From assembly GCA_029261275.1 (NCBI GenBank), contig JAJDBR010000144.1, positions 1 to 54,386 on the forward strand: a stretch of 54,386 nucleotides of DNA, read 5' to 3'. Positions within the stretch are counted from its first letter, which is position 1. Every line of letters starts with the position of its first letter. The notes under the pieces were generated by a model, which searched no databases, had not been told where the DNA came from, and saw nothing but the letters and a program-made list of their open reading frames with translations. Source of the stretch: Nitrospirales bacterium. GTDB lineage: Bacteria; Nitrospirota; Nitrospiria; Nitrospirales; UBA8639. The position numbers and the translations under genes were made by a program. Below, piece after piece: positions 6,960 through 54,386 of the stretch.

Positions 6960-7532
6960 TCATGATACGGGTGTTTCTGTGTGCAGAGAACCCCAGCGTT
7001 CTTGTAGGGAAATCGTCCATCTGGCTAGCCGTTGAGGCAAGAAAGTGAAGGAAAGAGCCATGAGTAATGGAGGTAAATGGTTGAGCGCGAAGATGGCCAT
7101 GAAAAATGGAATAGGTTCTATGGTCAGTCCAAGAGCTTCTTGTCTGGGATTAAACCAAAGCGAAAGTTGGCTTCCTAATAAGGAAAGCATTAGTGAAATG
7201 GTGTGAGCCAGGAAAAGAAGTCCACATGTAAAAATTCCTATGGTGAGCCATCCTGAGAGTTCGGAATCTCTCCTTAGTGTTTCTGAGTTTGAGGAAGATG
7301 TCTTCAGGATCCAAAGAGAAAGGGCTCGATATTTCAAAAGAAGTCCCAGACTTATAGCAAGCATGAGCAATGCCCCAAGGCCATTCGACAGAATTTCTGG
7401 CATTGAAGGGCTCCACTGTAAGCTTTGGTATAAGACAGGACCAGTCTGTATTGGGATACCAATTCCTAGCCAGATGAGGATGGCTTCCATCCATTGGCCA
7501 TGTCGGTTTTGAATGGCGGATGGATCACTCAT
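6960..7532 (-). CDS. Polytopic membrane protein
   Basis: 190 aa with several hydrophobic segments; its stop overlaps the next ATG (ATGA). Confidence 0.65.
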   Translation of the reverse strand: MSDPSAIQNRHGQWMEAILIWLGIGIPIQTGPVLYQSLQWSPSMPEILSNGLGALLMLAISLGLLLKYRALSLWILKTSSSNSETLRRDSELSGWLTIGIFTCGLLFLAHTISLMLSLLGSQLSLWFNPRQEALGLTIEPIPFFMAIFALNHLPPLLMALSFTFLPQRLARWTISLQERWGSLHTETPVS

Positions 7533-7571
7533 GAAAGAAAAAAATGGAGAATGGGCTAGGACTGAATTCTG

Positions 7572-9443
7572 CTAGGGAACAGCAATCGAGGAAAGGTCTT
7601 CTTTGGCAGTATCGAGTGATTGAAGGATATCTTCAATCTCTTCATCAATAGGTTGCCGTGGAATATCTCCTGATGACGGAGTTGATATAGCGGACTCGTT
7701 TTTTTGATTTATGTTTTCCTTGGCTGGCTTTAAGGTAGCGGGACTCTTAAGAGGTCCTATCTTCGTCGCGTTCGTGGTTGGTGACGGAGTTATCCTGTGT
7801 CCCGCCGATGTCCTTTTGGCCGGGAGTTTTTCAAGTGGGGTAATGGACTGGTTTGAAACTGGTGGTTGCTGAGCCATTGCTGGCTGGACAGGGGCTTTCT
7901 TGACGGCTTTCGTTGTTGGAGGTGAGGCAATCTCTGGAATGGCTGGAGCCATTTTTGACGGTGTTGGGTTCCCAGAGGTTTTCGGTTGCTTGGAAATAGG
8001 CTGTTTTTGAAGTGGGACGAGCGATGATTCTTGTTTCGTTTTTCTGGTCTTGGGTAGTGGTGTGACGGTAGATTGCTTGGGTTGTGCTTCGGGTTTTTGA
8101 GAACGAGACGTAGGGTTAGATAACGCATCGTGTTTTGGTTCTATTGGGAGAGCTAACGGTGGTATTTCCTGTTGGCGGAGTTCCTCTGACCCCGAGGGGA
8201 GTTCCTGGAGATTCACGGCATCTTGAGCCGGAGCGACGGGCTTTCCATCTTCGATTGACCTTGTCGCTGGTAGATTCGTTAGCGGTGATGAACCCTCAGG
8301 TTGTTCTTGCAGGATCGAAAGATGTGGTTCTAATATATCCCGATACCAATACCCCAATCCTCCAGCTAGCGCGACCAACACTATGAGTCCAAGTGTGATG
8401 CCGACTTTGCGGAGCATGGTGGTCTGTCTGGCTTGGCTATATTTCATGGACGCCTGAGGACGTTGGATTGGTGCTGTTTTGGGTGCGGGGTTCGGTGTCG
8501 TCAACGGGGTGGTGGTTGCGGTTGATAGCATTGCAGGTTCATCTTGATCTTTGGGCGGAGGAGCTTGCGGTTGAGGAGCGACCGGTGCCAAAAAAATACT
8601 TTTCTTGCTGATAGGGAGTTTTTGTAATTGTTGATTGATGATAGTCAGGACGTGGGTCGCATCTTGTAGGCGGTGTTGAGTGTTATTGTGAGTCATATGG
8701 CGGATGAGGTCACATATGGCTTCGGGAACTGTGTCAGGAAAGTCAAATATGGGATCAGCTTGGTCGAACGCTAATTTCCCCATGATGGACGTTTTTGGGA
8801 GGCCCGCGTAGGGAACGGTGCCGGTGAGCATTTCGTACATCATGAATCCTAGAGAATACAAATCGCTACTGACGTTGAGCAGCTCTTCCTTGGCGATTTC
8901 CGGCGGGAAATATGGCAAGGGTCTGAGGATCTCTGGGTCACAATTGGACAAAATATCCATCAGGATCCAGGATAACCCCAAGTCCAAAACTTTGATCTGA
9001 CCTTGTAATCCGACTAAGACATGGCCTGGATGAAGCGTTCCATGGATGATGCCCTGGAAATGCGTATGGACGAGGACTTCCGTTATCTCCCGAGCAAGCA
9101 TGAGCATGTCTTGAATGGGTAGCGGGCCTTTGTCATGAATCAACTGTTGAAGGCTGGGTGCATCGAAGAATTCCATAAAGATGACAGGGGTGTCCTCTTC
9201 TTCTTCGACTTTGAAAATTTTTATGAGATTCGGGTGATCTAAAAGGAGAAGGGGGCTAGATTTTTCAACGAAGGCTTTGCCACGAATCACACGGTTATTA
9301 ATATGGGAATGATAGATTTTGATTGCCACCTCTTGTCGTAATCCAAGATCATATCCATAAAGAATTGTTCCGGTTTGACCCTTGGCAATTTCCCCTTGAA
9401 TCTCAAATTTCCCGTCGAACAGTTCTTTCTTGAGTGTTTTCAC
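7572..9443 (-). CDS. Ser/Thr protein kinase-like membrane receptor (predicted pseudokinase)
   Basis: Kinase fold: EVAIKIYH (VAIK), VLDLGLS (DFG-like), PYFPPEIAKEE, SSDLYSLGFMMYEMLTG. TM segment VGITLGLIVLVALAGGLGYWY is followed by a Pro/Lys/Thr-rich tail. Confidence 0.85.
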   Translation of the reverse strand: MKTLKKELFDGKFEIQGEIAKGQTGTILYGYDLGLRQEVAIKIYHSHINNRVIRGKAFVEKSSPLLLLDHPNLIKIFKVEEEEDTPVIFMEFFDAPSLQQLIHDKGPLPIQDMLMLAREITEVLVHTHFQGIIHGTLHPGHVLVGLQGQIKVLDLGLSWILMDILSNCDPEILRPLPYFPPEIAKEELLNVSSDLYSLGFMMYEMLTGTVPYAGLPKTSIMGKLAFDQADPIFDFPDTVPEAICDLIRHMTHNNTQHRLQDATHVLTIINQQLQKLPISKKSIFLAPVAPQPQAPPPKDQDEPAMLSTATTTPLTTPNPAPKTAPIQRPQASMKYSQARQTTMLRKVGITLGLIVLVALAGGLGYWYRDILEPHLSILQEQPEGSSPLTNLPATRSIEDGKPVAPAQDAVNLQELPSGSEELRQQEIPPLALPIEPKHDALSNPTSRSQKPEAQPKQSTVTPLPKTRKTKQESSLVPLQKQPISKQPKTSGNPTPSKMAPAIPEIASPPTTKAVKKAPVQPAMAQQPPVSNQSITPLEKLPAKRTSAGHRITPSPTTNATKIGPLKSPATLKPAKENINQKNESAISTPSSGDIPRQPIDEEIEDILQSLDTAKEDLSSIAVP

Positions 9444-9674
9444 AATAGTTCTCTGACTTGTGTATGGTAGACGGGTGTAGTGCTCACCTCAGTGAGACGA
9501 AATTTTTTCCAAAAAAGACCGTAGCCTTATGGCATTCCTGTATATCTTTTCGGAATGCCCCTGGATTTACTTGAATGGCAGGAATTCCTTGGCGTTGATC
9601 TCCGAAGCCAAGAAGTGGGGGAGTAGAGAGTACAAATCTGGAAAAGGAATGTTAAGGCAGGATTGAGATCGAGT

Positions 9675-10856
9675 CTAACGAAGGATTTTGAGTGATTGTC
9701 CTACCTGTTGAATGGCTGTTAGGGCCTCATCGATTTGATCAGGGGAATGCTCAGCTGTGACCGTCACTCGGAGGCGGCTGCTACCTTTGGGGACGGTTGG
9801 AGGTCGGATGGCTGGGATATAGATCCCCTTTTTTTGTAGGCTCACGCTCATCTCGGTAGCGAGCCGTGGGTCGTGCACGATGATGGGGAGGATGGGACTT
9901 TGAGTTTTCGTCATGTGGCACCCCATGGCGGTTAACCCTTGATACATGTGTTCTCGATTTTCCCACAGTCGAGCATGCCGCTCTGGTTCTTGCAGAATGA
10001 GGCTTACGGCGGCTTGGGCCGCCGCCGCCATAGCTGGTGGTGGGGCTGTGCTATAGAGGAACGATCGGGAGGTATTGATAAGATAGTTAATTAATGACAA
10101 TGGCCCCGTCATGAACCCTCCACTAGTGCCTATGGCTTTGCTCAGCGTTCCCATATGAAGAACATTATGACCTTCCACCCCCCAATGCTCGATGGTTCCG
10201 CGTCCCGTGGGACCCATTACCCCCGTTCCATGGGCATCATCTAACAGCAACGTCGCTTCAAATTCCTTAGCCAGATGTGTCAGTTCAGGTAATGGAGCCA
10301 GGTCCCCATCCATACTAAAAACCCCTTCGGTGATAAGTAGAGTTGGGCGATTGGCCTGGCGGTTGGCTAAAAGCGAGCGTAAATGTTTCATATCATTATG
10401 GGGAAAGACCCGAAAGTCGGCTCGACTGAGACGGCAACCATCAATCAAACTGGCATGGCACAGGCGGTCGGCAAAAATGAGTCCGCCGGTTTTGGCCAGA
10501 AGGGGAATGACTCCCAGATTTGTCGCATAGCCGGAAGAAAAGGTCAGTGCGGCGTCGGTGTTGGTAAATTGAGCTAAGGCCAATTCTAGGTTGTGATGGG
10601 GTCTTAGGGTACCGGAAATTAACCGAGAAGCACCTGCACCTACGCCAAATTGCTCAATGGCTTTCTGAGCCACGTGTTTCAGCTGGGGGTGGTTAGCCAG
10701 TCCTAAATAATCATTTGTGGCAAACTGGAGGATCTTTTGCCCTTTCAAAGACATGATGGGGCCTGAGGGAGAGTCCAGAACTGATATTTCTCGTAAGAGG
10801 TGCTCTTGGGCTAATTTATGAATATCTGCTTCCCACATCGAAGGTCCTAGTTTCAT
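9675..10856 (-). CDS. bioF: 8-amino-7-oxononanoate synthase (or related alpha-oxoamine synthase)
   Basis: FATNDYLGLANHPQL, GAGASRLISGT, LLLDDAHGTGVMG, HMGTLSKAIGTSGGF. Confidence 0.88.
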   Translation of the reverse strand: MKLGPSMWEADIHKLAQEHLLREISVLDSPSGPIMSLKGQKILQFATNDYLGLANHPQLKHVAQKAIEQFGVGAGASRLISGTLRPHHNLELALAQFTNTDAALTFSSGYATNLGVIPLLAKTGGLIFADRLCHASLIDGCRLSRADFRVFPHNDMKHLRSLLANRQANRPTLLITEGVFSMDGDLAPLPELTHLAKEFEATLLLDDAHGTGVMGPTGRGTIEHWGVEGHNVLHMGTLSKAIGTSGGFMTGPLSLINYLINTSRSFLYSTAPPPAMAAAAQAAVSLILQEPERHARLWENREHMYQGLTAMGCHMTKTQSPILPIIVHDPRLATEMSVSLQKKGIYIPAIRPPTVPKGSSRLRVTVTAEHSPDQIDEALTAIQQVGQSLKILR

Positions 10857-28697: not shown

Positions 28698-29450
28698 GAC
28701 GGTGAGTTCAATTGATCAACGCAACACTTTATCCTACCCTAGGGAGATGGAGTGTGACGATGGAACACCGAACCCGCATTAGTATTTTTTAGCTGGCGAA
28801 GGCGGGTCGCAGTCATGGTGGGCAAAACGCACTCCAACCGGGGCGGTTCCAGGAATGGGCATCGAGCCCCTCTCCAAAGATGAAGCCTTGGCTTATGCGA
28901 AAGACGGGGGATTGTCGCTGCAACCACCCGGCGATTTGCTGCGGGGACCACTGTCGGTTGAGCTTGGCCACGACGATTTTGGCTAAGGAACGATGCTTCG
29001 CCAGCTTGCACCGTTTGGGCCGGTGCGCTCGATCCCAAGTAGCTTGGTCTGCTACCGCAGCTCGATAACCATCATACCCTCCATTGCGATGGATTTCACG
29101 ACTGATGGTTGAGGGCGAGCGCTTCAATCGACGAGCGATGGAGCGGAGAAACTGCTTGTTGGCTAACCCACGAGAAATCTCTTCGCGTTCTGCCAGACTC
29201 AGGGCTAACCGTGATCGTGTTCTCGTGGGCGGGCAAATCCCCCCGCTCGGCTGAAGAAGAGCATAAATCGAGGAGGACTCTCGCTCAAAGAGACGGCCAA
29301 TTGACCTCATGGATTCGCCACGCTGCCAGCGATCCCAAAGGTCTGCTCGTTGTGTAGCACTAAAATTGATGCGGGTTCGGTGTGTCATCGTCACACTCCA
29401 TCTCAAAAGGGTAGGATAAAGTGTTGCGTTGATCAATTGAACTCACCGTC
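28698..29450 (-). mobile_element. IS30-family relic bounded by ~80-bp inverted repeats
   Basis: gacggtgagttcaattgatcaacgcaacactttatcctaccct (28698 on) recurs inverted at 29450. The match continues, with a few mismatches, through the transposase start region (…HRTRI). Confidence 0.8.
28813..29388 (-). pseudogene. IS30-family transposase, truncated (DDE catalytic C-terminus missing)
   Basis: MTHRTRINFSATQRADLWDRWQRGESMRSIGRLFER...LALSLAEREEISRGLANKQFLRSIARRLKRSPSTISREIHRNGG...; the reading then diverges and ends before the catalytic core. Confidence 0.85.
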
Positions 29451-45023: not shown

Positions 45024-45983
45024 TCAGAAGTGGACCTCTCGGAGGGAGTCCTGATGAGCAAGGAACCATTGGATTGTTTTCTGAAGTCCTTCTTGGAGTG
45101 AATGGTTGGCCGCAAAACCAAAGAGCTGCTTGGCTCGATTGACATCAAGACAGCGCCGTGGCTGACCATTGGGTTTCGACGTGTCCCAGGCAATGCTTCC
45201 TGGAAATCCCACCTCCGCTGCAATAAGAGTTGCGAGTTCTCGAATGGTAATTTCCGTTCCTGTTCCTAGGTTGACGGGGAGGCTCTGGTCGTATTCTTGG
45301 GCCGCAAGAAGAATGCCTTCTGCGGCATCCTCTACGTAGAGGAATTCTCTGCTGGGAGATCCATCTCCCCACAAGACAATCTGGGAACGACCGGCCTTTT
45401 TGGCTTCTGCGCATTTTCGGATCAAGGCTGGGATGACATGAGATGTTTGTAAGTCAAAGTTATCCCGAGGGCCAAAAAGGTTTACAGGAAATAATACAAC
45501 GGACGAAAAATTATACTGCTGGCGATAGGCTTGTGATTGGACAAGAAGCATCTTTTTTGCGAGACCATAAGGCGCGTTGGTTTCTTCAGGATACCCATTC
45601 CATAAATCATCTTCTTGAAACGGTATCGGAGTCAGGTTTGGATACGCGCAGATGGTAGCCAGGGCAACGAATTTTTTGATCTTCTGTTGGCGCGCAACTT
45701 CCATCAATTGCGTGCCCATCATCAGGTTGTCATAAAAAAATTTTCCAGCATTGGCTTGGTTGGCTCCGATCCCACCAACGCGTGCAGCAAGATGAAGCAC
45801 CATGTCTGGATGGGTATCCTCATACAAGCGTTTGACGGCCTCCATTTCGACAAGGTTGTAGTCTTTGCTTCGAGGGACAAAGATCTGTTGGCAGCCTCGC
45901 GCCTGGAGTTGTTCTACGACGAAGGATCCTAGAAATCCAGCGCCTCCCGTTACGACAATTCGCCTATCAGACCAATAGGACAA
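45024..45983 (-). CDS. fcl: GDP-L-fucose synthase
   Basis: [84 protein letters not shown]. Confidence 0.95.
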
Positions 45984-45985
45984 GG

Positions 45986-47008
45986 TTACGCCTTTTTCGG
46001 TTGAGCGCCCTCGAGGCGTTCCCGTTCGAGGGATAAATCAGCATCGACCATCATGGCCGCTAACTCTTCAAATTTAACTTTTGGTTCCCATCCCAAGACG
46101 TGGCGTGCTTTTGACGCGTCTCCAATCAATAGATCGACTTCTGTGGGGCGATAATATTTGGGGTCAATTTTTACATGATTGCGCCAGTTGAGCTGTAGGC
46201 GACCAAATGCTACTTCAAGGAATTCTTTTACCGTATGGGTCTCGCCTGTGGCAATGACAAAGTCGTCAGGGACATCGGCCTGAAGCATGAGCCACATGGC
46301 CTGAATATAATCCCCGGCAAATCCCCAGTCACGTTTGGCGTCAAGATTTCCCAAAAAAAGATGCTCTTGAACGCCCAACTTAATACGAGCCGCTGCCTTG
46401 GTGATTTTTCGTGTCACAAACGTTTCGCCTCGCCGTGGAGACTCATGGTTAAATAGAATGCCATTGCATGCGAAGAGATTGTAGCCTTCCCTGTAATTCA
46501 CTGTAATCCAATAGGAATAGACCTTGGCGGCCCCATAGGGGCTTCTTGGATAAAACGGTGTGGTTTCCCGCTGGGGAACATCTTGGACTTTTCCAAACAT
46601 TTCACTTGAGGAAGCCTGATAGAATTTTGGCGTTAACCCAGACTCTCGGATCGCTTCAAGCAAACGGATGGTTCCGACTCCTGTGACTTCTGCTGTGTAT
46701 TCGGGGATATCAAAACTCACTCTGACATGACTTTGGGCACCGAGGTTATAGATCTCATCAGGCTGAACTGTGCGGAGAATACGATTTAGCGAACTGGCAT
46801 CATTCAAATCACCGAATACAAGCCGCAGATGAGGGTTAGGGACGTGGGGATCTTCATAGATCTGATCAATGCGGCCAGTGTTGAATGAGCTCGAACGCCG
46901 GATAATCCCATAGACCTCGTAGCCTTTAGCGAGTAGAAACTCAGCAAGGTACGAGCCATCTTGCCCAGTAATTCCTGTTATAAGCGCTTTTTTCATCGGT
47001 TTTTCCAT
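45986..47008 (-). CDS. gmd: GDP-mannose 4,6-dehydratase
   Basis: [85 protein letters not shown]. Confidence 0.97.
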
Positions 47009-47500: not shown

Positions 47501-47831
47501 CTGTCTTTGAAGGCAAGCCATTGGAGGATGATCTTTGAGTGATCCGTGAGTTTTTTGTTCGACAATTTGCCCCCCTTCAGTTGTCCTATCTTGGCCCCTT
47601 AAACGCCAAAGTCAGGAAGACGAAGTCCAACCGAAAATTTAGCTGTGATGAACCCGCCAGCGGCAGGTGGCAGAATTTCACTGCATGAAATTGCCCTGAA
47701 ATTCTCTCGAATGCCTACTGGGCATAAACACCGCATTTGCAAGTTTCTTACTCTTCAATGAAGGCTTCTTTTATCTTATGGCTGTCTCAATTCTATGTAG
47801 CCTCATGGAAACCACCAGGAGAAGAAAAGAT

Positions 47832-49577
47832 ATGATCATTCTTGGGTTGAACGCCTATCATGCAGATTCTTCCGCTTGTCTGGTACAGAACGGACAACTT
47901 GTGGCCGCTGCAGAAGAGGAACGTTTTCGGCGTATAAAACATTGGGCTGGATTCCCTCGATTAGCAATCGAGTACTGCCTTCAGGAAGCAAAAATTTCCC
48001 TAGGAGAGGTGAATCATATTGCCATAAATAGCAATCCCAAAACGAACCTTCTCCGAAAGACATGGTACAGCCTTGTCACACGACCAGACTGGCGAATAAT
48101 CATCGATCGGGCGAGGAATGCCCGCCAACGGATGTCTATAGCAGATACCTTGTCCAAAGAATTTCCAGGACAGTCCTGTAGCGCCACCGTACATCATATT
48201 GAACACCATCTTGCTCACGTGGCCTCAAGTTTTTTTGTGTGTCCATTTGAGGAAGCTGTTGTCTTGTCTGTGGATGGGTTTGGAGATTTTGCCAGCGCGG
48301 CCTGGGGTGTTGGAAAAGGCGGTTCCATTAGTCTGGAGAAAAAAGTATTTTTCCCCCATTCCCTTGGCATTTTCTACCAAGCGATGACCCAGTATCTTGG
48401 TTTTCCTCATTACGGGGACGAATACAAGGTAATGGGACTAGCTCCCTATGGACAACCTGAGTTTCGTTGTGAAATGGAAACCATAGTCCGAAAACAGAGT
48501 GACGGCGCGTTTGAGCTAGCCTTGGAATTCTTTCGTCATCACAATCAAAAAATTGAGTACAAGTGGAATAATGGTATTCCAGTAATTGGCCAATTGTTTG
48601 CCAAACCGTTAGAGGAGTTGTTGGGCCCAGCCCGCAAGGAAGGGGAACCGTTAGAGCAGAAGCATAAAGATATGGCTCGTTCTGTACAATGGATGTATGA
48701 GGAGGCACTCTTCCATCTTTTAAATAAGTTACACGCCCGTTATAGGCTTGATTCGCTTGCTTTAGCTGGAGGGTGCGCCATGAACTCTGTCGCCAACGGG
48801 AAAATATATGCCAGGACTCCTTTCAAGCGAGCATACATCCAGTCAGCCGCAGGAGATGCCGGTGGTGCCATCGGCGCAGCTTTTTCGGTCTGGTGTACCC
48901 TGTCCGGTGGCAAACGAAACTTCGTCATGGACCACGCATACTGGGGACCCCACTTCTCCATGGCTAATATTGAAACGTTGCTTGATGCCGAAGCGCTGCG
49001 GTTGGGTCAAGCAGGATGTCGCGTGATAAAGGTCACTGAAGATCTACTGGTGAAACAAACGGCGAAAGCCATAGCCGATGGTTTGGTGGTCGGGTGGTTC
49101 CAAGACCGCATGGAATGGGGGCCACGAGCTTTAGGGAACCGCTCAATCCTCGGCGATCCGCGTCGAGATGACATGAAAGATATTTTGAACTTAAAAATTA
49201 AACGCCGTGAGTCCTTTCGGCCATTTGCTCCATCTATTGTTCGTGAAGCGGTGAGTGAATGGTTCGAGACCGACGACGATGTACCTTTCATGATGAAAGT
49301 CTTTCAGGTCAGAGAAAACAAACGCACACAGATTCCCACAGTTACCCACGTGGATGGCTCAGGTAGACTTCAAACCGTTTGCCAAAAGGTGAATCCCAGA
49401 TATCATCGATTACTCAAAGAGTTCGAATCATTAACCCATGTTCCAATTATTCTCAATACTTCATTCAATGAGAATGAGCCTGTGGTGTGTCAACCGCAAG
49501 AAGCCCTTGATTGTTTTTTGCGGACTCGCATGGACGTATTGGTCCTGGGTGATCATTATATCGAACGGCTATCCTGA
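47832..49577 (+). CDS. Carbamoyltransferase (NodU/CmcH family)
   Basis: MIILGLNAYHADSSACLVQNGQLVAAAEEERFRRIKHWAGFP, HHLAHVASSFFVCPF, GWFQDRMEWGPRALGNRSILGDPR, SFRPFAPSI. Confidence 0.95.
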   Translation: MIILGLNAYHADSSACLVQNGQLVAAAEEERFRRIKHWAGFPRLAIEYCLQEAKISLGEVNHIAINSNPKTNLLRKTWYSLVTRPDWRIIIDRARNARQRMSIADTLSKEFPGQSCSATVHHIEHHLAHVASSFFVCPFEEAVVLSVDGFGDFASAAWGVGKGGSISLEKKVFFPHSLGIFYQAMTQYLGFPHYGDEYKVMGLAPYGQPEFRCEMETIVRKQSDGAFELALEFFRHHNQKIEYKWNNGIPVIGQLFAKPLEELLGPARKEGEPLEQKHKDMARSVQWMYEEALFHLLNKLHARYRLDSLALAGGCAMNSVANGKIYARTPFKRAYIQSAAGDAGGAIGAAFSVWCTLSGGKRNFVMDHAYWGPHFSMANIETLLDAEALRLGQAGCRVIKVTEDLLVKQTAKAIADGLVVGWFQDRMEWGPRALGNRSILGDPRRDDMKDILNLKIKRRESFRPFAPSIVREAVSEWFETDDDVPFMMKVFQVRENKRTQIPTVTHVDGSGRLQTVCQKVNPRYHRLLKEFESLTHVPIILNTSFNENEPVVCQPQEALDCFLRTRMDVLVLGDHYIERLS

Positions 49578-49740: not shown

Positions 49741-50970
49741 ATGAACAAATTAATTTTCGTCAATCGATATTTTTCACCCGACCACTCGGCCACCAGTCAA
49801 CTCCTCACAGATCTTGCGACGCATCTGGCCACCCATCTTTGCTCCAAAAAATTTCAAATCCATGTAGTCACCAGTGGCCAGATTTACGATGATCCCTCCG
49901 CTCGGTTACCGAATGTGGAGATGGTAGGAGGGGTGCATGTCAAGAGAGTGTGGACATCACGATTCGGACGCCGACATTTGGCTTCACGAACAATTGATTA
50001 TGTTACATTCTATGTCAGTGCGGCATGGTTTCTAGCCAAGTTAATCAAGTTTGGGGACATCATCATCGTAAAAACGGATCCCCCTCTTATTTCAGTGGTC
50101 GCCGCGGCGGTGGTACGATTCCGTGGAGGCAGGCTGATCAATTGGATCCAAGATTTGTTTCCGGAAATCGCAAGAGCCCTTGGTGTTCCTGGAAACAAGT
50201 GGACCGATCGATTTCTGTGTCGATTAAGGAATTTTTCACTCCATTCTGCCAGATATAATGTGGTACTTGGTAACCGCATGGCCCAGAGGCTAATCGGAAA
50301 TGGAATTCGGCCGGATACGATTAAAGTGATACATAATTGGGCTGATAGTAATGAGATTTCCCCGATAGATCGGAATGTCAATCCCCTTAGAAAGAGTTGG
50401 GGGCTTGAGAATAAATTCGTTGTTGGGTATTCAGGAAATATGGGACGGGTTCACGAGTTTGAAACAATCTTGAAGGCAGCACAAATATTAGACAAGGTAG
50501 ATGATATTCAATTTATTTTCATAGGAAGCGGGGCGCAGCGAGCATGGCTCGGAGCTGAAGTTCAGAGAAGAAAACTGAAAAATATTTTCTTTAAACCATA
50601 CCAACCACGGGATGGCCTTAACCTAAGCCTCAATGTTCCGGACATTCATCTCATTTCGTTGCTACCCGCAATGGAAGGCCTGATTGTGCCGAGCAAGTTT
50701 TATGGTATCGCGGCAGTAGGCCGGCCAACGATTTATGTGGGTGATCACAATGGAGAGATACCAAGTATTCTAAAAGCAGCAACATGTGGCTACATAGTAT
50801 CGATCGGGGATAGCAGTGGGCTTGCAGACAGGGTATTAGAACTGTCGCAAGACTTGGAGCGAGCAAAAAATATGGGTGAACAGGCACGTGCGATTTTCAA
50901 TCAACAATATGAAAAGCGGCATGCATTCGCCGCTTGGGAACTCCTACTGAGCCAAGCGGGCAACGGCTAG
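49741..50970 (+). CDS. Glycosyltransferase, GT4-like (WbuB-type)
   Basis: MNKLIFVNRYFSPDHSATSQLLTDLATHLA..., INWIQDLFPEIARALGV, VVGYSGNMGRVHEFETILKAA, DIHLISLLPAMEGLIVPSKFYGIAAVGRPTIYVG. Confidence 0.92.
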   Translation: MNKLIFVNRYFSPDHSATSQLLTDLATHLATHLCSKKFQIHVVTSGQIYDDPSARLPNVEMVGGVHVKRVWTSRFGRRHLASRTIDYVTFYVSAAWFLAKLIKFGDIIIVKTDPPLISVVAAAVVRFRGGRLINWIQDLFPEIARALGVPGNKWTDRFLCRLRNFSLHSARYNVVLGNRMAQRLIGNGIRPDTIKVIHNWADSNEISPIDRNVNPLRKSWGLENKFVVGYSGNMGRVHEFETILKAAQILDKVDDIQFIFIGSGAQRAWLGAEVQRRKLKNIFFKPYQPRDGLNLSLNVPDIHLISLLPAMEGLIVPSKFYGIAAVGRPTIYVGDHNGEIPSILKAATCGYIVSIGDSSGLADRVLELSQDLERAKNMGEQARAIFNQQYEKRHAFAAWELLLSQAGNG

Positions 50971-51263
50971 CAATCCCACTAACCTCTCATTCCGGACTGA
51001 ATGCCACGATCTGACAGGAAAGCGTAAATGATGCGCCAGGTTAAATTAGATTTCATGCACACCTCAGCATTCAACCTGCTTCCATAATGAATACTCGCTA
51101 TTGTTGCCTCTCTAGTGATAACGGCACAGAACTCGTGAATCATGGTTTATCCGCATTTCTCATTCTAAAGGCGATCAACGCAGTCTGCACTAAACCAGGA
51201 TAAATTCTCAAGTGCTCTATGGTCAGATATGTTGGAGAGGCAAATAGGAAGCACCCATCAGCA

Positions 51264-52517
51264 ATGAAGAAACTGTCAATAAATTTATTGCTAAGTTATT
51301 CATCTGCCCTCCTCAGTTTTTTCATCATTTTACTATTGGCTCGCCTATTGGGCGCCGAGAATTTTTCTTGGGTCGCGCTCGGGCTCGCAGTAGGAGTGTT
51401 TGTCACTCCCCTTATTAACCTCGGTAGCGATAGAACGTTCGTTCGAGATGCCGTAGGAACAGCAGATACCGTGGACAATATGGCTGCGTCGAATTTCGGT
51501 CAGCGACTGTTTGTTTGTTTGGGAGTCTCAATAGTACTTGTCGTTGCAAGCAATCTTTACACAAGCAATATTGCTGATGCCATTTCTATGGTTAGTCTCT
51601 CACTATGGGCAGGCCTATTAGGTTTATATCCTACGTCGTGGTTTGATTATTCGCATGACACGAGACGACAGAATGTTTTGGGCCTCAGCGAGCGTGTTTG
51701 CAATTTGCTACTGATTGGTATGCTATATCTCTATACTCAAGACGTGTCTGAGACATTTTTGATAGGCCTACTCCTCCTAATCAGTAGAATATTTTTCATA
51801 TGTTTGCAGATGAAATCATGGTGGGCACGTCACGCATGCATCAACTTCCAACTAAAGCTATCTCCACCAAAGCGAAATGGGGATGGCATAAATTTCCACA
51901 TTACCATTGCAGGCGTTGCAAATTCTTGTGTGACGCATGGCAGTCAACTCATTTTAGCGGCAAATAATGATCCAGTGGAGTTGTCCTCGTATAGCTTAGC
52001 ATTTCAGATCATGGCCATAATATTCTTATTTCAGGGACAGGTTATACGTTTGAGTAATAGGACGATTGCAGAAGCATGTAGATCAAAAAGCGGAGCCCTC
52101 CGTTCCCTAATCTATAATGCCAGTTTTCTCTTTGCGGGTTCCGCTTTTCTGGCAATTGGTGCATGGACAGCCATTCAGTTCTTACCACAATTCCTGGCCG
52201 ATCTTCGTTTTGATGTCATGTCTCAATATTCACCGATCCTTTGTATTTGGGTAGTGATAGCGGGCGTGGGAATGTCTATCACACAACATAATATAGCCTT
52301 GAATCAAGAGTCTTTCTATTTGGGTCTGGCGATAATTGGAGGTGTCTTCTCTCTGCTGCTCGGCCTGGTGTTTGTTCCTGATTACGGGGCCTATGCCGGG
52401 GCCTTGATTCTCTTAACTATTAGTAGCCTTATGATTCTCGCTAATTTCCTGCGGTTGCTCTATATAATAAATGCAAGGAAAGAACCAGATTTAGAAAGTT
52501 ACACCGCGGTCAGCTGA
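51264..52517 (+). CDS. Polysaccharide flippase (Wzx/MATE-like), oligosaccharide translocase
   Basis: Multi-TM protein MKKLSINLLLSYSSALLSFFIILLLARLLGAENFSWVALGLAVGVFVTPLINLGSDRTFVRDA.... Start refined to ATG 51264. Confidence 0.85.
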   Translation: MKKLSINLLLSYSSALLSFFIILLLARLLGAENFSWVALGLAVGVFVTPLINLGSDRTFVRDAVGTADTVDNMAASNFGQRLFVCLGVSIVLVVASNLYTSNIADAISMVSLSLWAGLLGLYPTSWFDYSHDTRRQNVLGLSERVCNLLLIGMLYLYTQDVSETFLIGLLLLISRIFFICLQMKSWWARHACINFQLKLSPPKRNGDGINFHITIAGVANSCVTHGSQLILAANNDPVELSSYSLAFQIMAIIFLFQGQVIRLSNRTIAEACRSKSGALRSLIYNASFLFAGSAFLAIGAWTAIQFLPQFLADLRFDVMSQYSPILCIWVVIAGVGMSITQHNIALNQESFYLGLAIIGGVFSLLLGLVFVPDYGAYAGALILLTISSLMILANFLRLLYIINARKEPDLESYTAVS

Positions 52518-52684: not shown

Positions 52685-53977
52685 ATGTCGTACCATTGGG
52701 ATGATGAAAGTCAGGCATGGCTCCAAGCAGAGGACAAGAAAACAAGCGTGGTTCGTGCACGATGTATTCGCCTTGCGCCAGAGAAATACGCTGCCTCCGT
52801 CATGCCGCATCAATTTTGGCTCGATATTTTCCAGGATTTACTTCATGAACTATTGGAGTCGTACATGAATGGAGGGGGGCTTCGCTGGCAAGATCGTTTG
52901 CTTCAGCGCCCAATGGAAGCTCCTCATGGGTGGGTCGCTGTTGGGGTGCAAAAGGCTTGGGAGTTGGCAGTCAATAAACTCAAGGAGGATTGCAGGCCGT
53001 TCCAAGTGGCAACCCAAGGTATACCTGAAAGACTAGCTAACCTCTATGAACTGCTGGAAAGACAGATCGCATTGCATCCATGTAAGGGACCTAAGATGAG
53101 CGTGCATCTTGCTGGAGAAAACCATCTCGATCCACATCCACAGCTTACTCTGATTCAAAGAATATTCTCCGAGATAGAAACTTCGAATCAATTGCAAACG
53201 ATGCTATTGGTTCAGGGCAGCGTAGGAACACGGCAGCAGATTGGGTACAGCGATCTTGATTTATGGATGATCGTGTCGAATGAGGCCCTTGCGAACCCTC
53301 ATAAGTTGCGGGAGCTTGCCAAAGCCACGTTTCGAATCAACCGTTGCTTGAGTGCATTCGATCCTCTACAACATCATGGTGTTATGCTTTCCTCTCAGAT
53401 CGATATGTATCGCTATAGGGAATCGTATTTACCGGTTGCTGCTATAGCAAAGGCAAGTTCTCTTTCTCCTGGGCAAGGCTCGAAGCTCGTCTTCCATGTA
53501 ACACCTTCTTCGCTCGGTTCGGGAATGTCCTACTTCAACATGTTGTCTTATTTACGAAGCATCGTTGAGAAGGGGACAGAAATTCGAACGCCGTTCGCGA
53601 TTAAGAGTGTATTAAGCTGTATCATGTTGCTACCGGCGCTATTCGAAGGAGCAATGGGACGTCCAACCTTCAAAGGGGATTCCTTCGATCGAGTCGAAAA
53701 GATTGTTCCTTTCGATATTTGGTCGATCATGACCGAGGTAAGCGTCGTTCGAGAACGCTGGAACTATCGTCCGCCGCTTCTAGTTAATGTGGTTCAAACC
53801 TACGTCCGCAACCCGTTTGTGTTTCAATACCTTTTACGGCGAGGGTTGTCTGGAAATTTAAATCATGCCTATGATCGTCAACTGCCAAGCAATTGGCAGC
53901 AGCGATCACTGGCGCTTGCGGAGTACCTTTGGGAGCACCTATGTCAATCACCGACGACGTCATTAAGCGTGACATAG
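52685..53977 (+). CDS. Protein with nucleotidyltransferase-superfamily motif (function unknown)
   Basis: MLLVQGSVGTRQQIGYSDLDLWMIVSNE: GS-x10-DLD pattern of the minimal NTase fold. Confidence 0.7.
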   Translation: MSYHWDDESQAWLQAEDKKTSVVRARCIRLAPEKYAASVMPHQFWLDIFQDLLHELLESYMNGGGLRWQDRLLQRPMEAPHGWVAVGVQKAWELAVNKLKEDCRPFQVATQGIPERLANLYELLERQIALHPCKGPKMSVHLAGENHLDPHPQLTLIQRIFSEIETSNQLQTMLLVQGSVGTRQQIGYSDLDLWMIVSNEALANPHKLRELAKATFRINRCLSAFDPLQHHGVMLSSQIDMYRYRESYLPVAAIAKASSLSPGQGSKLVFHVTPSSLGSGMSYFNMLSYLRSIVEKGTEIRTPFAIKSVLSCIMLLPALFEGAMGRPTFKGDSFDRVEKIVPFDIWSIMTEVSVVRERWNYRPPLLVNVVQTYVRNPFVFQYLLRRGLSGNLNHAYDRQLPSNWQQRSLALAEYLWEHLCQSPTTSLSVT

Positions 53978-54386
53978 ATGATTACGAACGAGCGACACAA
54001 GCCGAAATAGAGCAGCTCAGAAGGTCGCCCGCGGTTGTATCCATCTATTCAACAGGGATGATCAAAGCCCCGGGGATTTCTGACCTAGATTTGATAGTAG
54101 TGCTTGATCTCGACCGAACTCAGGGAAGTTTGCGCCAGGACCTTAAACACTCTTTGGTCACAGCCTACGATCCATACATAAGAATGCATCCGATCTTTGT
54201 TGTCTCTCCCGCACTTTTTCAGAATGTGCGGTGGCTTGCCGACCTCAGTACCCTTGAGTGTGTCTACGGAGAAGACATCGCTGTTGATCCAGTCCCCGAA
54301 CAATATGCGGAAATTCTTCGAGCGATCTCTGTGTTGGAAATCGGCACTCATAAGCTCTTTGCGATGCGACAAATGCTCTTGAGCAA
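53941..54386 (+). CDS. Second nucleotidyltransferase-like protein (partial, runs off right edge)
   Basis: Own translation: MSITDDVIKRDIDDYERATQAEIEQLRRSPAVVSIYSTGMIKAPGISDLDLIVVLDLDRTQGSLRQDLKHSLVTAYDPYIRMHPIFVVSPALFQNVRWLADLSTLECVYGEDI... It overlaps the upstream gene by 37 nt and is absent from the ORF track. Confidence 0.7.
   Translation, partial: MSITDDVIKRDIDDYERATQAEIEQLRRSPAVVSIYSTGMIKAPGISDLDLIVVLDLDRTQGSLRQDLKHSLVTAYDPYIRMHPIFVVSPALFQNVRWLADLSTLECVYGEDIAVDPVPEQYAEILRAISVLEIGTHKLFAMRQMLLS

Follow-up and report, generated by a model that had tools for sequence, protein, structure and literature searches.

Paired nucleotidyltransferase-fold genes recur in surface-glycan loci of bacteria and archaea and may encode a two-subunit glycan-tailoring transferase

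Nucleotidyltransferase (NTase)-fold enzymes encoded in glycan loci are known chiefly as LicD-type phosphotransferases, and the aminoglycoside O-nucleotidyltransferases transfer AMP to the hydroxyls of sugars or aminocyclitols. LicD and CpsC are NTase-fold glycan enzymes that use CDP conjugates (PMC11666461), and phosphonate cytidylyltransferases occur together with LicD-like genes (PMC6697681). Here, we analyzed two genes, A and B, that sit at the end of a bacterial EPS locus in a Nitrospirota contig of 54,386 bp, the whole of which we refer to as the window. Our best explanation, to which we assign a probability of roughly 45% as a whole, is that A and B are the two subunits of a surface-glycan-tailoring transferase with the NTase fold.

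Gene A (52685-53977, plus strand, with its TAG stop codon at 53975-53977) encodes a predicted NTase-fold protein of 430 aa, which carries the motif QGSVGTRQQIGYSDLDLWMIV and has helical regions N-terminal and C-terminal to the NTase core, the latter containing K330 and F334. Gene B, whose predicted NTase-fold product carries the motif IYSTGMIKAPGISDLDLIVVLD, begins with an ATG at 53941 and continues on the plus strand to position 54386, where its 3' end is missing and 148 aa are present. Since the window is one entire contig, B is truncated by the assembly, just as the original prediction had the second gene running off the window; its remaining part was not found elsewhere when the whole genome was searched, and full-length B homologues are about 320-440 aa. 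The ORF coordinates and sequence bear out the predicted gene overlap, which is exactly 37 nt (53941-53977, plus strand), together with the two NTase motifs. As read from the sequence, the ribosome-binding site of B lies inside gene A (53931-53940, plus strand), with GGGAG placed 5 nt before the ATG, and the upstream stretch TGGGAG-CACCT was rated a good ribosome-binding site. Each motif pattern occurs only once in the six frames of the 54 kb, in genes A and B, and is retained in homologues from distant phyla, so the motifs are not chance occurrences. Just upstream of A is a flippase-like gene (51219-52517, plus strand; Polysacc_synt, 5.7e-5, below the curated cut-off), and the plus strand also carries a group 1 family glycosyltransferase (49741-50970) and a NodU-like carbamoyltransferase (47778-49577). 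Genes resembling a GDP-mannose dehydratase and a GDP-fucose synthase, identified by eye on the minus strand (45024-47008), run opposite to the rest of the EPS locus. Elsewhere in the window, a helix-turn-helix ORF (28813-29436, minus strand) looks by eye like the N-terminal portion of an IS30-type transposase and is probably a remnant.

Neither window protein matched a Pfam, NCBIfam, PADLOC, or PHROGs model at cut-off, and the best model matches of window A were weak and of NTase type (Adenyl_cycl_N, 0.0076; DUF294, 0.014). Among the homologues, the Pfam model NTP_transf_2 matched 10 of 17 A proteins (best 1e-5), one of which exceeded the gathering cut-off, and Polbeta matched 3 of 14 B proteins (best 9e-6). 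Both families carry the NTase (Pol beta) motif, hG[GS]-x(8-13)-[DE]x[DE] set in a strand-turn-helix core. The curated ANT family model did not match the window proteins, and the ANT_9 model matched 2 of 19 family members (best 0.016). We modeled window A (mean pLDDT 74, pTM 0.77) and the A-B fusion of locus L020 (mean pLDDT 79, pTM 0.77), and the top Foldseek matches against the PDB were AadA/ANT(3'')(9), AAD(9), and ANT(4''), with probabilities of 0.99-1.0, weak E-values (best 1.6e-3), and, for the leading matches, modest target-normalised TM-scores of ~0.35-0.55. Together, the Pfam matches of the homologues and the likeness of the predicted folds to solved NTases uphold the assignment to the NTase superfamily, and A and B almost certainly carry the NTase fold. 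The structure and profile matches fix the fold class, not the reaction. No family model describes the pair and no paper on it was found in the open-access literature, in line with the original description of a candidate undescribed system, and we regard A and B as a variant within the superfamily with a function that would be new.

A and B were found together in full, as a pair or as a fusion, at 17 loci in about 14 independent lineages, many of them in metagenome-assembled genomes, which belong to Nitrospirota, Patescibacteria, Spirochaetales, Alphaproteobacteria, Thermodesulfobacteriota, and Bacteroidota among the bacteria and to Woesearchaeota and Lokiarchaeota among the archaea. L013-L015 are close relatives of one another, as are L024 and L025, and L052 is a duplicate of L014. 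A was not found in the 59 other relatives searched first, 20 of them of the same genus, and it is rare in the phylum, where 396 genomes gave a single additional full-length match and one more Nitrospirota A was located through B; at both of these loci (L012 and L022), the A-B pair adjoins a flippase. A B-profile scan of about 85,000 species genomes, which relied on short exact patterns and is not exhaustive, yielded 14 loci across many phyla, including these two Nitrospirota loci again, and targeted searches added L048, L049, L050, and L051. Neither gene was found in the viral contigs, plasmid records, or phage records scanned. Candidates at L007 (G246) and L042-L044 (read in L053-L055) were rejected, being either chance matches or ordinary short NTases that lack a partner, and the weak Nitrospirota matches L058-L069, which cover only ~50-105 residues of the NTase core, were left uncounted.

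All loci examined sit among glycan genes, which supports the predicted link to glycans. The 104 neighbours of 16 loci were most commonly glycosyltransferases, methyltransferases, NeuB, short-chain dehydrogenases, heptosyltransferases, cytidylyltransferases, and flippases. Flippases flank the pair in the window, L012, L022, and L013-L015; six loci have NeuB no more than about 20 kb away (L016, L018, L019, L020, L048, and L050); and L017 and L023 have an ABC transporter as a neighbour, as read by eye. A phosphonopyruvate decarboxylase among the neighbours was likewise identified by eye. The glycan genes vary by locus, and no constant neighbour points to the substrate or donor. A 267-aa gene that matches no Pfam model lies directly upstream of B at each of the three Woesearchaeota loci (L014:2011-2814, L013:5043-5924, and L015:5121-5924). 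At L051, the fusion (7018-10443, 1141 aa) has a C-terminal TPR-like segment and adjoins a gene that looks flagellin-like by eye and glycosyltransferases, among them a 1192-aa multi-domain one.

One form that glycan tailoring could take is a LicD-like phosphotransferase, which would use a CDP- or CMP-activated donor (polyol, choline, or phosphonate) and deposit phospho-X on the glycan; our best explanation covers this as a special case in which the donor is specified. It would fit the frequency of CMP-sugar genes among the neighbours and the precedent of LicD, whose proteins form a subgroup of the NTases and use CDP conjugates in capsule loci (PMC11666461), as well as the occurrence of LicD-like genes in phosphonate cytidylyltransferase loci (PMC6697681) and the position of one B in a PEP mutase/NTP-transferase locus. 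That B (L049:8197-9444) is divergent, has no A, and lies beside a gene for a PEP mutase-NTP transferase fusion (L049:6461-8122; phosphonate activation), a hint that B-type proteins may use CMP-phosphonate. However, the LicD profile PF04991 gave no match at E up to 1, the nearest folds are those of nucleotidyltransferases rather than phosphotransferases, and CDP-alcohol genes were not seen at most loci. We consider a LicD-like phosphotransferase rather unlikely.

Every A-bearing locus has B adjacent or fused to A (17/17). The usual gene order is A then B, with the two overlapping in the window, L012, L048, and L050; in L021, B precedes A and overlaps it, in the Woesearchaeota loci L013-L015 the two are tail-to-tail, and in L024 and L025 one methyltransferase-like gene lies between them. 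Five genomes encode A then B in a single ORF, namely L016 (658 aa), L017 (814 aa), L019 (794 aa), L020 (651 aa), and L051 (1141 aa). Since the fused L017 groups in the tree with the unfused L023, and the fused L019 with the unfused L022, fusion or fission has occurred repeatedly, in at least three separate events. Tree distances of A and B correlate (r=0.82, 15 loci, permutation p 2e-4), to which shared species history can contribute. B occurs without a detected A at two loci: L018, where B is split over two overlapping reading frames near the contig end and no A was found, and L049, in whose genome no A was detected. An alignment that combined the fusions with every single A and B row (A8) was discarded since it placed B rows on the A half, and the fusion was therefore modeled from the fusions and B rows only (A9). 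Given the recurrent pairing, the fused genes, and the correlated tree distances, A and B very probably constitute a heteromeric unit. The complex that the original prediction proposed from the overlap thus gains strong, if indirect, support from the recurrent pairing and the five fused genes.

The main rival of another kind is that the two proteins regulate a glycan pathway, nucleotidylating and de-nucleotidylating one of its proteins through a pair of NTase units with opposing activities, as GlnE does. The fusions do hold two homologous NTase units in one chain, and profile searches with A matched the AMPylating domain of DrrA (5e-4). On the other hand, no GlnE or GlnD_UR_UTase profile match was found, and no neighbouring protein recurs consistently enough to serve as a shared target. 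We consider such a regulator quite unlikely.

Eight residues are invariant in the 17 A sequences (G178, S179, S189, D190, D192, H231, P250, and P317), and the core pattern G178-S179...S189-D190-x-D192 recurs as GS-x10-DxD in 17/17. Position 226 is Asp in 14 of 17 sequences, the exceptions being L019, L022, and L051, and position 238 is E in most sequences and Gln in window A. G39, P44, G45, S47, D48, and D50 are invariant in the 19 B sequences; the window motif G39-x3-A-P-G-x-S47-D48-x-D50 corresponds to PG-x-SDxD and G-x8-DxD in 19/19, and the residue following G varies. B has no conserved third acid near the core, and its helical part carries a conserved acidic residue and an R..W motif. The second Asp of DLD, whose variation among homologues had been named beforehand as grounds for abandoning the NTase reading, is invariant in both families. 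Since the profile of A aligns with that of B as homologous (hhalign 95.6%), the pair looks like an old duplication, with A and B appearing to be two diverged copies of one NTase-fold architecture.

Under the glycan-tailoring explanation, A and B would act as one heteromeric transferase, fused in some lineages. With an NTP or a CDP/CMP-activated compound as the donor, this transferase would move a nucleotidyl or phosphoryl-linked group to a hydroxyl of the glycan, or of the lipid-linked precursor of the glycan, before the neighbouring flippase or ABC transporter carries out export. A would probably be the main catalytic subunit, with its fuller acidic set (D190, D192, and D226) and invariant H231, while the invariant SDxD of B may serve to bind metal or nucleotide, with B completing or regulating the site. 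Alternatively, B could be a non-catalytic scaffold and A alone could modify the acceptor, or the reverse could hold in the subgroup of L019 and L022. The missing third acid of B and the loss of D226 from A in L019, L022, and L051 would be consistent with this, but SDxD is invariant in both families across very divergent sequences, which is unusual for dead enzymes, and we find a scaffold decidedly unlikely. In the L019/L022 subgroup (L019:4756-7140 and L022:4805-7035), B reads FGS..APGNSD and A lacks Asp at 226, and it is possible that catalytic roles have shifted between the subunits. A defence, second-messenger, or toxin-antitoxin system (CD-NTase or MNT-HEPN-like) is highly improbable, since superfamily resemblance and weak profile matches (A to CdnD, 1e-3; one B to NTase-conflict, 0.014) are set against a lack of matches to PADLOC defence models, of effector genes among the neighbours of the pair loci, and of phage or plasmid copies among the records scanned for a pair that is always in glycan loci. 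The defence and tRNA-modification options of the original prediction gained no support, and these, like GlnE-like regulation, are less likely than a two-subunit transferase that tailors surface glycans. Counted against this transferase are the lack of a match to LicD or any other glycan-modifying NTase family, the absence of D226 in three loci, the B family without a third acid, the L049 B without an A, the weak Foldseek E-values and modest TM-scores, and the lack of a constant neighbour.

A bolder claim would be that the pair is an unrecognised, phylum-spanning two-subunit NTase that adds nucleotidyl or phospho-groups onto surface glycans, which we regard as tentative and on balance somewhat unlikely. 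If true, it would add a new class of glycan-tailoring chemistry across bacteria and archaea. The presence of a co-inherited and repeatedly fused pair in glycan, nonulosonate, and flagellin-modification loci, with a span from Patescibacteria to Asgard archaea, points to a missing step in surface-glycan decoration, and the pair supplies invariant residues open to direct testing.

Among known systems, GlnE has two NTase units per chain, comparable to the A-B fusions, but A and B match no GlnE model; A and B also differ from GlnE and DrrA in having no constant protein target nearby, and the DrrA match is weak. MNT-HEPN systems share the short NTase motif and the two-gene layout, whereas both A/B partners are NTase-fold proteins of 320-440 aa, match no HEPN model, and lie in a glycan context. 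LicD/Fukutin-type proteins (PF04991) likewise belong to the NTase superfamily and occur in surface-glycan loci, but show no sequence match to A or B, and obligate pairing of two NTase proteins has, to our knowledge, not been described for LicD. AadA/ANT(3'')(9), AAD(9), and ANT(4'') combine an NTase core with a helical domain, as A and B do, at 9-14% identity and with weak E-values. These aminoglycoside O-nucleotidyltransferases are single small enzymes, whereas A and B are two homologous NTases that are paired or fused in glycan loci.
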